From NCBI RefSeq assembly GCF_013414195.1, contig NZ_JAATTV010000002.1:186001-250000 (forward strand): 64,000 bases of DNA, read 5' to 3'. How positions within the stretch are numbered: position 1 is the stretch's first letter; every line of letters begins with the position of its first letter. The notes beneath the pieces were generated by a model, which was not told the DNA's origin, did not search any database, and saw nothing but the letters and a program-made list of their open reading frames with translations. This DNA is from Psychrobacter sp. BI730. Its GTDB lineage: Bacteria > Pseudomonadota > Gammaproteobacteria > Pseudomonadales > Moraxellaceae. The position numbers were made by a program, and so were the translations under genes. Shown here piece by piece: positions 18,160 through 56,668 of the stretch.

Positions 18160-19485
18160 ATGAATCAGGTCGCTGACATTCTTAAGCTGGCAATCAAAGT
18201 TAAGCAACAAGGTATTGATGCTGTATTGGCAACGGTCGTACGTACTGAAGGCTCAGCGTATCGCCGTGCTGGCGCGATGATGCTCATCTGTGAGGATGGT
18301 CGCTCAGTTGGGATGATTAGTGGTGGTTGCTTGGAGCCGCACATTATCAAACGTGCCTTTTGGCTTACTCGTAACGGTGCCAATGTGCAAGTTTATCAGA
18401 CGGGTGATGACATTAAATATACTGACGATGGCCAAGCGCAAGCAGGTGCTAAAGAAACTAAGTCTGATATATATGATGGGCCAGATAACGATTTAAATGA
18501 CGGTTTAGATGAAGCGGACTTTGATGAGCTGAATTTTGGATTGGGCTGTAATGGGCGAGTGCATGTATTGTTTGAGCGACTAACGACAGCAACGCCATTG
18601 CTAGAGACAATCCGTAATGTTCGACGTACTCAGCAGCCGATTACTGTAGCGACTTTGATTCGTGCTAACGACTATCAGCATCAAGGTTCTGTATCGCAAA
18701 ACAGGGATAACTTGCAAATCGGGATGCGGATTAATTTAGATGAATACCGCAGTTTGGGAAGCGTTTCTGCACTAGGGAAGACAGCGTTTTCAAGCATACT
18801 TGCCAATACCGTAGAAGAGTTAGCAGAATATAAGCTGTCTGATAAAAATGCCGAATATGTGACGGTGGAAAACGGCAAGGTAACAACAGAGTGGCTCGTG
18901 CAACGCCTGCAACCACAATTGCGTCTATTGATTTGCGGGGCAGGTAACGACGTGATGCCACTAGTGACCATGGCTAAGCTACAAGATTGGCATGTGACGG
19001 TCGTAGACAGTCGCGCGCAATATGCGACGCGTATGCGGTTTCCTCAAGCGGACGTTGTGATGTCGCTATCTTTAGATGACAGTGAGACTTTGCTTAAGCT
19101 GAGCAATAACGCAGCAGTTGCTTTGATGTCACACAGCTTGAGTCAGGATCGCGATCGCTTAGCGACATTACTCAAGCATCCAGACAATTATAAATACTTA
19201 GGACAATTAGGGCCGCGCTATCGTACCGAACGCTTGATTAATGAAGTCAGCATGAATCTTAGCAATCCTGCTATGTTAGAAGCGGGCACTCATAAATTAC
19301 ATTATCCGATTGGTTATAAGCTGGGTGGAGATGGCCCTGACGCACTCGCGCTTGGCATTATGGCAGAGATTAATGCAGTCATGCATGATCAAAAAGCTCC
19401 AATAAATGGTTCACACAGTAATTTTTCAAATATCCCAGCGGTGAGTAGTGATACGGATGCCAATACTGTCCAGAGTGGCGTATGA
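18160..19485 (+). CDS. XdhC/PaoD-family molybdenum cofactor maturation protein
   Basis: 441 aa. N-terminal XdhC_CoxI domain (TVVRTEGSAYRRAGAMM, GMISGGCLEPHI) and C-terminal Rossmann domain (RLLICGAGNDVMPLV, then YKYLGQLGPRYRTERL). Such proteins bind the Mo cofactor, promote its sulfuration and insert it into the large subunit; PaoD does this for PaoABC. An acidic stretch at about residues 98-124 looks like an insertion. Its end overlaps the MocA-like gene (ATGA), so the two are translationally coupled. Confidence 0.85.
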   Translation: MNQVADILKLAIKVKQQGIDAVLATVVRTEGSAYRRAGAMMLICEDGRSVGMISGGCLEPHIIKRAFWLTRNGANVQVYQTGDDIKYTDDGQAQAGAKETKSDIYDGPDNDLNDGLDEADFDELNFGLGCNGRVHVLFERLTTATPLLETIRNVRRTQQPITVATLIRANDYQHQGSVSQNRDNLQIGMRINLDEYRSLGSVSALGKTAFSSILANTVEELAEYKLSDKNAEYVTVENGKVTTEWLVQRLQPQLRLLICGAGNDVMPLVTMAKLQDWHVTVVDSRAQYATRMRFPQADVVMSLSLDDSETLLKLSNNAAVALMSHSLSQDRDRLATLLKHPDNYKYLGQLGPRYRTERLINEVSMNLSNPAMLEAGTHKLHYPIGYKLGGDGPDALALGIMAEINAVMHDQKAPINGSHSNFSNIPAVSSDTDANTVQSGV

Positions 19486-45204: not shown

Positions 45205-47526
45205 ATGTCAAACCAATCAGGTTGCTCTGATTTCTCAGTCATCACTTCTCCAAAAAAACTTCAACGCGTCGTGACTGGTAAGCTTTTACTAAGTATCGCT
45301 GTGACTTCTATTCTTAGTAGTACCGCTTTTGCTGCCGAGGGTGATGAGGTAGCTGTGCAAGGGGCGACCGACCAAGAAGCTGTGCCTACAGCTACATTGG
45401 ATACAATTGTGGTGCGGGCAGCAAGGGACGAGCTAGAACAAGCAGCAGGGCTGTCTATTATTAGTGAAGAAGCCATCGAAAAAGCATCAGTTTCTAATGA
45501 TATTTCAGAGATTGTACGTAAGATGCCAGGTGTGAATTTGTCGGGTTCATCGACGTCAGGTCAACGTGGTAACCAGCGCCAAATCGATTTGCGTGGTATG
45601 GGGCCAAACAACACGCTTATCTTGATCGATGGTCGTCCTGTGACTTCTCGTAATTCCTCACGACCTAGTCGTGGGAGTGAGCAAGACACGCGTGGTGACT
45701 CGCAGTGGGTACCACCAGGCGCTATCGAAAGCATCGAAGTATTGCGTGGTCCAGCAGCAGCCCGTTATGGCTCTGGTAGTATGGGCGGTGTGGTAAATAT
45801 CATTACTAAGAGTCCGACTGAGCCAGAGTTTTCTATCAGTGGTCACTATGAGGCACCAGAGAGCGATCTAGAAGGCAGTAGCTGGCGTACCAATATCAAT
45901 ATGGCAGGTGCATTGACGGATAAACTGTCCTCGCGTACCACTCTTGGTTATCACGATAGTGAAGGCGATGATCCTTATATCAATGCCAAAGATGCACAGA
46001 TTGTTGACGGGCGCAGTGGTCCGGCTGCCTCGGTAGCGGCAGGTACTGAAGGTGTCGAAAATATCGATGTGCGCCAATTGTTTGAATACGCGATGGATGC
46101 GATGAATACGGTCGGTTTTGAAGTGAATTATAGCCGTCAAGAAAACCGCTGGGCGGGTGATTCATTGTTCCAAACCGTGAACCAAAATTTGTTAGATGAG
46201 TTAGAAGGTGAAACAACGAGCAAAATGCAACGCTATGGCGCGGCGATCACACATCGCGGTGAGTATGATGACGCTAGTAGTAACAGTTTCATTGAGTATA
46301 CTCGGACAGTTAATGAGCGTTTGGGTGAAGGTAGTGCGGGTGGTGGCGAAGGACAGATTGTCATACCTGACGATGGCGAAGATTTTGAGTGGACAGAGGC
46401 GACTTACGATACGCTAAATGCCAAATCAGAATGGGATATTTACTTTGATCGTCATACCTTGACTGCTGGTGCAGAGTTTCGCGGCGAAAAGCTAGATAAC
46501 CCCGTGGTATCTGATTTGGCATTTGCAGATGGTTTTGATTTTGGTGATGTAGAGACCGATCCTGAACAGCGTGATCCAACTTCAGATGCTTATCTTATTG
46601 GTGTATATCTAGAAGATAACTACGAGATCACACCTGACTGGTATGTGACTCCAGGTCTACGCTTCGACTATCATAGCGAGGCTGGTAGTAATTGGTCGCC
46701 TAGTATCAATACTACTTGGCATTTTAGTCCTGATTGGTCAGTGAAAGGCGGCGTCAGTCGTGCGTTTAAAGCCCCATCGTTATATCAGCTTGATCCAAAC
46801 TATATTTACTATACTGGTGGCAATGGTTGTCCATCTTGGGTACCTCTTGATGAAAGAGGTTGCCACGTATTAGGGAACCCTGACCTAGAAAATGAGACAT
46901 CTTGGAATAAAGAGATCACCTTTACTTATGATGATGGTACTGGACTGAATGCAGGCTTGACTTATTACCATAATGCCTATGATAACCGCATTGGCGCTGG
47001 TACGGATCGTGTGGCGGTAGATACAGCGACAAATCGTTCTATCTTTCAATGGGACAATCAAGGTGAAGCAATTGTCGAAGGTTTAGAAGGTTTTGTACAA
47101 GTACCAGTCACTGACAAGGTTTCGTGGTCTACCAATATCACCAGTAACATCCGCTCAGAGCGAAAAGACAATGGCGAGCCATTATCACTCATTCCTAAGT
47201 TCACTGTGAACACGGGTGTGGATTGGGATATTACGCCTCGCTGGAATGCCGACTTTGATGTGAGCTACTACGGCACGATTGAAGCCCCTACGATTTCAGT
47301 TACGACTGGAGAAGATAGTGGTGACCCGTTGCTTGATCGCGAACCGTATGCCATTGCCAACGTGAGCACTCGCTATGATTTGACAAAAGCGATTACTGTT
47401 GGAGCTGGTATCAAAAACTTGTTTGATGAGGGTGTTTATCGTGAGGGTACCGCTACGAACGCAGGTGCACGTACGTTCAATGAACCTGGTCGTACTTATG
47501 TGTTCGACGTTAGCGTTGATTTTTAG
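45205..47526 (+). CDS. TonB-dependent catecholate-siderophore receptor, FepA/PfeA-like
   Basis: 773 aa. Signal peptide with core LLLSIAVTSILSSTAFA, TonB box DTIVVRA, and a plug typical of FepA/PfeA/IroN: GMGPNNTLILIDGRPVTSRN, then RGDSQWVPPGAIESIEVLRG, PAAARYGSGSMGGVVNIITK. The barrel has paired Cys in a loop (GNGCPSWVPLDERGCHVLGN) and ends in FDVSVDF. It should import ferric enterobactin-like siderophores or their breakdown products with TonB-ExbBD energy. The Fur-core palindrome lies upstream. Confidence 0.88.
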   Translation: MSNQSGCSDFSVITSPKKLQRVVTGKLLLSIAVTSILSSTAFAAEGDEVAVQGATDQEAVPTATLDTIVVRAARDELEQAAGLSIISEEAIEKASVSNDISEIVRKMPGVNLSGSSTSGQRGNQRQIDLRGMGPNNTLILIDGRPVTSRNSSRPSRGSEQDTRGDSQWVPPGAIESIEVLRGPAAARYGSGSMGGVVNIITKSPTEPEFSISGHYEAPESDLEGSSWRTNINMAGALTDKLSSRTTLGYHDSEGDDPYINAKDAQIVDGRSGPAASVAAGTEGVENIDVRQLFEYAMDAMNTVGFEVNYSRQENRWAGDSLFQTVNQNLLDELEGETTSKMQRYGAAITHRGEYDDASSNSFIEYTRTVNERLGEGSAGGGEGQIVIPDDGEDFEWTEATYDTLNAKSEWDIYFDRHTLTAGAEFRGEKLDNPVVSDLAFADGFDFGDVETDPEQRDPTSDAYLIGVYLEDNYEITPDWYVTPGLRFDYHSEAGSNWSPSINTTWHFSPDWSVKGGVSRAFKAPSLYQLDPNYIYYTGGNGCPSWVPLDERGCHVLGNPDLENETSWNKEITFTYDDGTGLNAGLTYYHNAYDNRIGAGTDRVAVDTATNRSIFQWDNQGEAIVEGLEGFVQVPVTDKVSWSTNITSNIRSERKDNGEPLSLIPKFTVNTGVDWDITPRWNADFDVSYYGTIEAPTISVTTGEDSGDPLLDREPYAIANVSTRYDLTKAITVGAGIKNLFDEGVYREGTATNAGARTFNEPGRTYVFDVSVDF

Positions 47527-52654: not shown

Positions 52655-53707
52655 TTATTTAGCGTTAGTAAAAGCATCTTTAATCGTCGTTAGATCCTGC
52701 ATCCACTGGTAGTAACCGCCAAATGCTAAGTAAGAATCTGGGCTAAGATAAACCACTTGCTGCTTGCTCCATGCATTGCTCTGGGCAACCAGTGGATTGT
52801 CCAATACGGCCTTGGCACCAATACCATCTTCACCAATTGCGGCACTACGGTCGATGACAAATAACCAATCAGGATTGGCTTTTTGGATATATTCAAATGA
52901 TATCGGCTGACCATGAGGCGCATCGGCAATTTTGTCATCTGCCATTGGTACACCTAACACAGTGTGGATAAAGCCATAGCGAGACTTGTCACCATAGGCT
53001 GACATTTTATTGCCATTGACCATGACGACTAGGCCAGTACCTTTATTTTCTTTTGTTAGACTCTTGGTCTCAGTGATGAGTCCATCGATGTTCTGTTGTA
53101 ACTTTGCGGCTTGATCGCTTTTACCGAACAATGCACCTAGATCATGCAGGCGCTGCTTGCTTGACTCATAGATATTGGCTGTATCAATACTCATGTCCAA
53201 TGTCGGCGCGATACTTGATAGCTCGTCGTATTTTTCTGCCATGCGTGAACCGACCAAAATAGTTTGTGGCTGCATTGCATTCAACGCTTCAAGATCCGGC
53301 TCAAACACAGTACCTACCGATTTTGGATCAGGCTGTGTTTCTGAATGTAGATTCTTTAGTAATAGACCACCAGGCATACCATCGACCGCCACATCTAGTG
53401 CAGCCAAATCTTGCATCAATGTCATGTCATAAACGACAAGTGGCGATGGGTTCATAGCCAGCTCAACATCACCTTTTACGGTATTAACCATGATTTTTTC
53501 AGCAGATACAGCGTCGTTATTAGCAACGTTCTGTGATTCATTAGCCGTTGGGTTTTCGGTTTTGGCGTCTGCTGGCTCAGAGTCATTAGATTCAGGCGAG
53601 CTACATCCTGCCACTACGGTAGCTAACAATGCTGTCATGGCAGCAGTCAGTAATGGACGTTTGAAAGAAGAGGCGGTAGATCTGCTAGATAATAAGGGTG
53701 TCGGCAT
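52655..53707 (-). CDS. Siderophore ABC transporter substrate-binding lipoprotein (CeuE/YclQ-like)
   Basis: 350 aa. Lipobox VVAGC at about Cys35, a low-complexity Ser/Asn/Asp linker, then the class III binding protein fold: MNPSPLVVYDMTLMQDLAAL, ALNAMQPQTILVGSRMAEKY, ELSSIAPTLDMSID, SAYGDKSRYGFIHTVLGVPM, ANPDWLFVIDRSAA. This pattern is that of CeuE, FatB, YclQ and VctP, which bind ferric catecholates. First gene of the operon; Fur-box promoter about 380 bases upstream with a MITE in the leader. Confidence 0.9.
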   Translation of the reverse strand: MPTPLLSSRSTASSFKRPLLTAAMTALLATVVAGCSSPESNDSEPADAKTENPTANESQNVANNDAVSAEKIMVNTVKGDVELAMNPSPLVVYDMTLMQDLAALDVAVDGMPGGLLLKNLHSETQPDPKSVGTVFEPDLEALNAMQPQTILVGSRMAEKYDELSSIAPTLDMSIDTANIYESSKQRLHDLGALFGKSDQAAKLQQNIDGLITETKSLTKENKGTGLVVMVNGNKMSAYGDKSRYGFIHTVLGVPMADDKIADAPHGQPISFEYIQKANPDWLFVIDRSAAIGEDGIGAKAVLDNPLVAQSNAWSKQQVVYLSPDSYLAFGGYYQWMQDLTTIKDAFTNAK

Positions 53708-53829
53708 AATGAACTCGGTCTATAAAAAAATGTTTAAGCAATTGTCTAAAATAATTGCAAATGAATGACGCTAAAAATATTAAGTCTGAAAGATGCTGAG
53801 ATAAAAGCATAAAATAAATAGTCTACTTA

Positions 53830-53999
53830 GGGCGTGTCCTCAATTCAAACGAGTATCCTCTAAATGGGCTAAAAACAGCTAAATTTTGCCAAACATCGTC
53901 AAATAGTTGGTCAATATCTCGATATTATCTGCACTATTTTCCTCGTTTGACGGCAATTTATCTCATTTTTATCACCATTTTTAAAATGAGGACACGCTC
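53830..53999. mobile_element. 170-bp MITE with IS-like terminal repeats
   Basis: Terminal inverted repeats GGGCGTGTCCTCA (53830-53842) and, complemented, GAGCGTGTCCTCA (53987-53999), 12 of 13 matching. Flanked on both sides by TA (53828-53829 and 54000-54001), fitting a TA target duplication. No transposase inside. The end sequence recalls IS5-group elements but I cannot confirm the parent. Confidence 0.75.
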
Positions 54000-54069
54000 T
54001 AGTACCACTCACTAATTTTTTATACGAATAGTTTTTATAAAAATAGTATGGATAGACAGTACAGCGGTT

Positions 54070-54112
54070 ATAATAAAGTAGTTGAGACTCATTATCAATA
54101 TAAATGATAATG
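54070..54112 (-). promoter_or_regulatory. Fur-box-like dyad and leftward promoter of the siderophore ABC operon
   Basis: CATTATCA (54090-54097) and TGATAATG (54105-54112) are perfect inverted arms around 7 bases, Fur-box-like. Overlapping it on the minus strand are TTGATA (54098-54093), a 17-base spacer and TATTAT (54075-54070). Transcription would start near 54063 and run through the MITE. Confidence 0.65.
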
Positions 54113-54177
54113 GTTTTTATTAACAGCACTTGTTATATTAAACGCAACGTATCATTTGATGTAAAGATAAGATTCAT

Positions 54178-54233
54178 AGTAGTGAAGTAGTGAAGTAGTG
54201 AAGTAGTGAAGTAGTGAAGTAGTGAAGTAGTGA
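54178..54233. repeat. Octamer tandem repeat, seven copies
   Basis: AGTAGTGA repeated seven times without a mismatch between the two divergent iron-related promoters, about 95 bases upstream of the tonB -35 box. Such runs are prone to copy-number slippage. Confidence 0.95.
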
Positions 54234-54327
54234 ATGTTCATAGAAATGAGCGTTCTGAGAGGTAAAACTACTAAGCAATGCCATGTGTCAGAGATGTATT
54301 AAATAGCGAAAATATTGTAAATTATTA

Positions 54328-54356
54328 TTGATAATAATTATCGTTTGCATTATTAT
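54328..54356 (+). promoter_or_regulatory. Fur-controlled promoter of tonB-exbBD
   Basis: TTGATA (54328-54333), 17 bases, TATTAT (54351-54356). The 13-bp Fur core GATAATAATTATC (54330-54342) covers the -35 and part of the spacer. A start near 54363 gives a leader of about 33 bases. Confidence 0.75.
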
Positions 54357-54395
54357 CTACGCCATTCTACTCTGAGTAATAAACATTAGGCTTTT

Positions 54396-55355
54396 ATGAG
54401 TTCAACGGATTTAGACGCGCCACCACTTAAGTCGTTATTGCTAGCTATTGTTGCAGTACTAGGACTCCATGTGCTTGCCGCAATTGCACTAGTGGCAATA
54501 AAAACGCCTGAACTCAAACCTGAGCCAAAAAAAGAGATGTCACCACTTGAGATAAAGTTTGTGTCATTACCGGCAAAAACGGTCTCAACTGAAGTAGAAA
54601 AACAAACAGTCACAGCCAAAAAAGAAGTACAGCCTGAGGTGCAAGTTCAGCCAGCGCCGCAACCTGAACCAAAGCCTAAAGAGTCGGTTAAACAACCAAC
54701 AGAGACACCTGTAAAACCAAAAGAGCCTGTTGTAAAAAATACAGAGCCGAAAGTGACGCCTGTGATAGCGTCAGAAAAGCCTCGTCCTGATACCAGTCAA
54801 AAAGTAGCCCCAAAAGAGCCGCTACCGAAACCAAAGGTTGATAACTCAGCAGCTGAAGCACAACGTCAAGCAGCTGCCCAAGCTGAATCAGAGCGTCAAG
54901 CCAGAAAAGCTGAGCAAGAAGCGCAAGCTAGGGCAGAACAAGAAGCCAAAAGAGTCGCTGATGTCAGAGCTGCCGCTCAAGCGAAGGCTGCCGCAGAGGC
55001 CGCCGCTGCACAAGCAAGAGCTGAGGCAGAAGCAGCAGCTGCTTTAGCACAGAGTAATGAGCCTGTGAGCTTTACTGCTAGCTCAGCCAACTGGGCATCT
55101 GCGCCAAACTTTAGTTTTCCTGAGCGCGCTGCCCGTAGAGCTCGTTCTGGTGATACGCTCAACGTTGTCTTGGTATTACGAGTCAACAAACAAGGCGGCA
55201 TCGATAACGTGCGAGTTGCTCAATCATCAGGTAATCCGCTACTAGACAAAGAAGCCCGACGTCAAGTTCGATCTGGCAAGTTCAAACCCTTTACTAAGAA
55301 TGGCGTACCCGTGGTAGGTGATGTAACTCTACCGATCAGTTACGCGGTTCCTTGA
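54396..55355 (+). CDS. tonB: TonB energy transducer
   Basis: 319 aa. One N-terminal membrane helix (SLLLAIVAVLGLHVLAAIAL), then a Pro/Lys/Glu-rich periplasmic spacer, then an Ala/Glu/Gln-rich coiled-coil-like stretch (~residues 148-225), and the C-terminal TonB domain (FSFPERAARRARSGDTLNVV, then VNKQGGIDNVRVAQSSGNPL and FKPFTKNG). The Ala-rich helical region is more like TolA and makes the protein longer than E. coli TonB (239 aa). It links the proton motive force to outer membrane receptors. Heads tonB-exbB-exbD. Confidence 0.92.
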   Translation: MSSTDLDAPPLKSLLLAIVAVLGLHVLAAIALVAIKTPELKPEPKKEMSPLEIKFVSLPAKTVSTEVEKQTVTAKKEVQPEVQVQPAPQPEPKPKESVKQPTETPVKPKEPVVKNTEPKVTPVIASEKPRPDTSQKVAPKEPLPKPKVDNSAAEAQRQAAAQAESERQARKAEQEAQARAEQEAKRVADVRAAAQAKAAAEAAAAQARAEAEAAAALAQSNEPVSFTASSANWASAPNFSFPERAARRARSGDTLNVVLVLRVNKQGGIDNVRVAQSSGNPLLDKEARRQVRSGKFKPFTKNGVPVVGDVTLPISYAVP

Positions 55356-56616: not shown

Positions 56617-56668
56617 ACTGAATAACTTAAGCACTGAATAGTTTAAGCACTGAATAGTTTAAGCACTG
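56617..56668. repeat. 16-bp tandem repeat after exbD
   Basis: ACTGAATAGTTTAAGC repeated three times (first copy with AC for GT) plus ACTG, starting 14 bases after the exbD stop. It runs into a hairpin AGCACTG-tgagt-CAGTGCT (56662-56680). Confidence 0.85.

Follow-up and report, generated by a model that had tools for sequence, protein, structure and literature searches.

The window, a stretch of 64,000 nucleotides from Psychrobacter sp. BI730, contains a perfect octamer array in the spacer between two divergent promoter-like sites of iron-uptake operons. The array is quite probably a recent, lineage-specific slippage microsatellite that lies in a change-tolerant spacer between Fur-type promoters and is likely neutral. 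The direct observations behind this reading are the array itself, a length difference in unit steps from related genomes, an unexpanded forerunner at the same site, identical -35/Fur blocks on either side, a divergent spacer between them, and arrays between convergent genes that vary by whole units as well.

The octamer array and its surroundings

The first-pass annotation had described seven exact octamers with iron-uptake promoters on either side, and this description is borne out. Seven error-free copies of AGTAGTGA occupy positions 54178–54233, and one more matching base follows (from the sequence and from TRF). The flanking genes match the description, and so does the position of the array upstream of two divergent promoter-like sites. 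Both sites overlap Fur-box-like sequence. The features of the region are the following.

52655–53707, minus strand: periplasmic iron-siderophore binding protein (Peripla_BP_2; best NCBIfam match SstD, below cut-off)
53828–54002, no strand assigned: MITE-like insertion between the left promoter and its gene; dispersed copies, ends GGGCGTGTCC / GGACACGCTC, TA on each side
54070–54098, minus strand: predicted sigma-70-like promoter TTGATA-17-TATTAT of the leftward siderophore ABC operon; consensus match only
54084–54124, no strand assigned: Fur-box-like AT-rich sequence at the left promoter; 13–14 of 19 positions agree with a Fur consensus
54178–54234, no strand assigned: exact octamer array (AGTAGTGA)x7.1; TRF period 8, 100% matches
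54324–54348, no strand assigned: Fur-box-like sequence at the tonB promoter; 15 of 19 positions, at 54324, agree with a Fur consensus
54328–54356, plus strand: predicted sigma-70-like promoter TTGATA-17-TATTAT of tonB-exbB-exbD; consensus match, with 54320–54379 identical in relatives
54396–55355, plus strand: tonB; TonB C-terminal domain (TIGR01352, 47.2 bits vs a cut-off of 27.1)

After the binding protein, the leftward operon continues with two FhuB-type permeases and a FecE-type ATPase. Rightward, tonB is accompanied by TolQ/ExbB-like and TolR/ExbD-like genes. Apart from tonB, the genes in these two sentences are named after best NCBIfam matches that fall below the cut-offs. A FepA-family receptor is located at 45205, and its name is not among the below-cut-off matches.

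The array is the sole exact array with a unit of 4–12 and at least three copies in the 64-kb window. No period-8 array with three or more copies appeared in 100 third-order Markov simulations of the window, and a chance origin of the array was ruled out by these simulations. The open reading frames that touch the array are only 28–36 amino acids long. Minus-strand frames of 29 and 36 residues run through or into it, and a plus-strand frame of 28 residues stops inside it. The array is otherwise non-coding and consists of exact head-to-tail units, as an intergenic VNTR does. A coding role appears unlikely, the relatives being without the array.

With the genome available as a draft in 42 contigs, the copy number might be an assembly artefact. 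We regard this as extremely improbable. The array lies in the interior of a 289,554-base contig, its 57 bp are shorter than an ordinary short read, and its excess over the relatives described below is an exact multiple of the unit.

The promoter scan returned five sites, and shuffled sequence gave 4.2 on average. The left Fur match alone is unexceptional, as 32 window positions reach 13/19; just four window positions reach the 15/19 of the right match. With the scan near shuffle level and the left Fur match unexceptional, the weight rests on conservation, which was scored on 17 aligned close loci that make up 15 distinct rows. The -35/Fur blocks at 54080–54119 and 54320–54379 are identical in all 15 distinct relative rows. 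The scorable 20-bp blocks across 54160–54279 have pairwise identities of 0.83–0.89 in the 15 distinct rows, and conservation in the region is lowest in the spacer around the array. This contrast between conserved blocks and variable spacer is weaker because the left -10/start block (54060–54079) is itself variable, at 0.88. The left promoter is identical in relatives on its -35 side, and its -10 is altered in one aligned row (L041).

The array site in related genomes

A 901-bp region was compared with 105 Psychrobacter genomes, including the own genome, with one genome per species. Some part of this region is matched in 99 of the 105, and many of the matches cover the MITE-like insertion only. 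We defined 15 close relatives (L007–L020 and L022), which have 85–93% identity over the array site, among the matches listed. There were 100 aligned loci, and many named loci duplicate the same genomes, so the 15 distinct close-match genomes were used for counting. Via the binding protein, 65 named loci were found; all are from Psychrobacter except one from Moraxella, which makes it almost certain that the window belongs to Psychrobacter. The window's own genome and very near genomes may be missing from this set.

The array site is unexpanded in every close relative. It measures 24 bp in 14 of them and 23 bp in one, compared to 56 bp in the window, which has therefore gained 32 bp, or four units, relative to the 24-bp form. 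The stretch begins with AGTAGTGA in 14 of the 15 close relatives. The most repeat-like forerunner, present in two relatives, consists of the three imperfect octamers AGTAGTGA AGTATAGA AGTAAGGA. The proposal in the earlier annotation that slippage changes the length in 8-bp steps is supported by these lengths. A whole-unit length difference between related genomes is characteristic of an intergenic VNTR. A contingency locus is expected to have its tract recurrent at the locus in relatives, and the tract was found in none of the 15; a young contingency locus could still lack this recurrence.

Three units within two mismatches are present in only one of the 105 genus genomes, the window's own. 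When the 104 other genomes were scanned for three AGTAGTGA units within two mismatches, none was found. A dispersed family of AGTAGTGA arrays was ruled out by this result, the three units being confined to one place in the own genome. The genome G015 (the same record as L049) has 74% identity over the site and was excluded from the close relatives for this reason. It keeps both promoter blocks, its spacer is rewritten, and it has no array.

The same comparison bears on whether the array could be an iteron-like operator, that is, a protein-binding repeat array for a regulator or a nucleoid protein at the divergent promoters. We consider this highly improbable, even though direct-repeat octamers do lie beside the promoters and the first of them is the one kept in nearly all close relatives. 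The relatives have the same promoter blocks without the array, and no other three-unit array exists in the own genome or in the 104 others. The window holds just one more single AGTAGTGA octamer, at 19444. An 8-bp period would also not be helically phased.

Insertions are found near the array site. The position of the MITE-like element (53828–54002) is uninterrupted in nine of the 15 close relatives and carries the element in the remaining six. Near-identical dispersed copies are present in many genus genomes, with at least two elsewhere in the own genome among the matches listed. A different insertion of approximately 279 bp, with similar ends (GGGCGTGTTGAAC...GTTCAACACGCCC), is present in the same inter-promoter spacer of P. 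nivimaris (L022/L040).

Promoter spacing and possible phase variation

The array is located 79 bp upstream of the left predicted -35 box and 93 bp upstream of the right one. Counted from the predicted starts, it spans approximately −115 to −171 on the left and −129 to −185 on the right. A direct change of the -10/-35 spacing was ruled out, because these distances from the predicted boxes are too large. In the window, 229 bp separate the two -35 boxes. We found the motif pair in 42 of the 65 named loci, where some pairs may be fortuitous, and this gap is 197 bp in nine loci of the close clade, 476 bp in one (P. nivimaris, with its insertion in the spacer) and 62–220 bp in 32 that are more distant. 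In the close clade it is 196–197 bp, except for P. nivimaris (476) and the window (229). This near-constant gap could mean constraint or, equally, recent ancestry. As the gap varies across the genus, a device that depends on that distance is not a shared feature.

The first-pass annotation had likened the layout to that of phase-variable genes. The likeness to known phase-variable promoters stands, but the evidence lends no support to phase variation as such. The array is far from both predicted -35 boxes, the gap varies across the genus, nowhere in the region is conservation lower than in the spacer, and arrays between convergent genes vary by whole units too.

The main alternative to neutrality is a phase-variable or rheostat promoter element. 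Here the copy number would alter the spacing or the helical phase of upstream contacts and so tune the siderophore operon, tonB, or both. The array does lie upstream of both promoter-like sites, its repeats are perfect, and the close-clade promoter gap is near constant. Precedents are known in nadA (PMC2791445), in hmw and other H. influenzae SSRs (PMC2651432) and in fetA (PMC13293289). A perfect 57-bp array between two uptake-gene promoters is also the layout expected of a contingency locus, and an 8-bp step would correspond to roughly a three-quarter turn of the DNA helix; both points count against neutrality. We nevertheless think such an element unlikely. The distances of 79 and 93 bp, the gaps that other members of the genus have (62–220 bp, and 476 bp in one), the missing array at the site in 15 of 15 close relatives and the variation of convergent-gene arrays all speak against it. 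Among the matches listed, the literature search returned no report of phase variation in Psychrobacter or of this array. The papers listed that pair 'Psychrobacter' with 'phase variation' name the genus once or twice each.

We give still less credence to a young rheostat in which slippage would adjust both divergent, Fur-regulated promoters together and link the import of siderophores to the energy supplied by TonB. If true, this would mean parallel or opposite tuning of the two promoters within one population. Psychrobacter is largely environmental and cold-adapted, and if copy number altered iron uptake, the array would give this genus a contingency locus that acts on core nutrient uptake. 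Growth in one lineage alone cannot tell neutrality from new selection.

Other tandem arrays

A sample of 804,869 bases, 25% of the own genome, contains 12 exact arrays with a unit of 5–24 and at least three copies. The larger contigs (669,554 bases) and the small ones (135,315 bases) account for six each. Two relatives (G086 and G024) have three and six such arrays per 200 kb, irrespective of coding status. One array on contig C18 and two on C19 precede Rep3 replication genes, and these three, which belong to the small-contig set, are more probably plasmid iterons than products of slippage. Among the 12, one lies within a 1961-aa open reading frame, and two are cut by contig ends. At the start of contig C12 of the own genome (L132:1–77), an octamer array of GTATATAA with at least 9.6 exact copies runs to the contig end.

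Three other arrays of the own genome were compared in the same 15 relatives. The (AGTTAGC)n array, between convergent LysR and aminotransferase genes, has 2–9 units across 15 genomes, the own genome included; one of the 16 rows (G081) was left out, its site being split by an insertion. The second is a 16-bp tandem repeat at 56617–56668 (3.2 copies), which lies just 3' of exbD and faces a convergent open reading frame. Thirteen relatives have 65 bp at this stretch and two have 49 bp, compared to 81 bp here, an excess of one and two units respectively. Arrays between convergent genes thus vary by whole units where there is no promoter spacing, and such variation alone is no sign of phase variation. 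The third is the octamer array (TTGCTACA)n, approximately 124 bp upstream of a heavy-metal P-type ATPase open reading frame. Its aligned stretch measures 66 bp in the own genome and 42–82 bp in the relatives, with differences that are multiples of 8 in 13 of the 15. The position of this array near the ATPase gene counts against a neutral interpretation, as some variable arrays do sit on the promoter side of genes.

Tandem AGTTAGC is also present at a second, unrelated locus, directly after an ABC permease gene and overlapping its stop codon, with 4–10 units in four relatives. Arrays of this unit are located at L122:1722–1750 and in L209, L210, L212 and L213. At least three exact units of AGTTAGC occur somewhere in 19 of the 105 genus genomes.

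Growth of the array

For a neutral slippage microsatellite, the following course can be proposed. The ancestral spacer would have contained a 24-bp stretch beginning with AGTAGTGA, which takes the form of three imperfect octamers in some relatives. Neighbouring octamers would have become identical in this lineage. Replication slippage or unequal exchange may then have added four units, to reach seven. There are no substitutions in 57 bp where close relatives differ by 7–15%, which suggests recent growth or continuing turnover. We infer that slippage was the mechanism by which the array grew, that the copy number is still changing within the species, and that the array has little or no effect on either operon.

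Comparison with known systems

FetA is an iron receptor. The hmw genes are adhesin genes of a pathogen, which sets them apart from the Psychrobacter array. The phase variability of fetA is the subject of PMC13293289. In H. influenzae, the hmw1a and hmw2a promoters contain heptanucleotide SSRs, for which modulation of expression is cited from earlier work, and an octanucleotide SSR of GCATCATC is present in 12–15 copies at 200–213 nt upstream of the hmw loci (PMC2651432). The hmw SSRs and the Psychrobacter array are alike in having a short unit in many copies upstream of genes.

H. influenzae also has the octanucleotide SSR (ATTATTTG)1–6 between the divergent genes cmkB and pdxS, with 1–6 units between strains, and the authors are not sure whether it has a modulating effect on expression (PMC2651432). 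It resembles the Psychrobacter array in its 8-bp unit and its intergenic position between divergent genes. The sequences are unrelated, and strain variation is documented for cmkB/pdxS, whereas the variation here is between species only.

The TAAA tract of nadA in Neisseria meningitidis is located upstream of the core promoter, and its repeat number changes the spacing of upstream contacts. RNA polymerase protects a distal region from −116 to −154 (PMC2791445). Contacts to −154 would extend as far as part of the Psychrobacter array, as counted from the predicted starts. Like the hmw SSRs, the nadA tract shows that repeats upstream of a promoter are able to modulate it. At nadA, operators flank the tract, IHF binds to it and expression was measured; in Psychrobacter the inter-promoter gap varies across the genus.

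Ordinary bacterial intergenic VNTRs serve strain typing. The Psychrobacter array shares with them a whole-unit length change in non-coding DNA and no demonstrated function; the comparison here has a single genome per species. The array is genuine but unremarkable, and probably neutral. On present evidence it is an ordinary species-specific microsatellite and a possible strain-typing marker, and it illustrates well how a perfect array can grow from an unexpanded forerunner.
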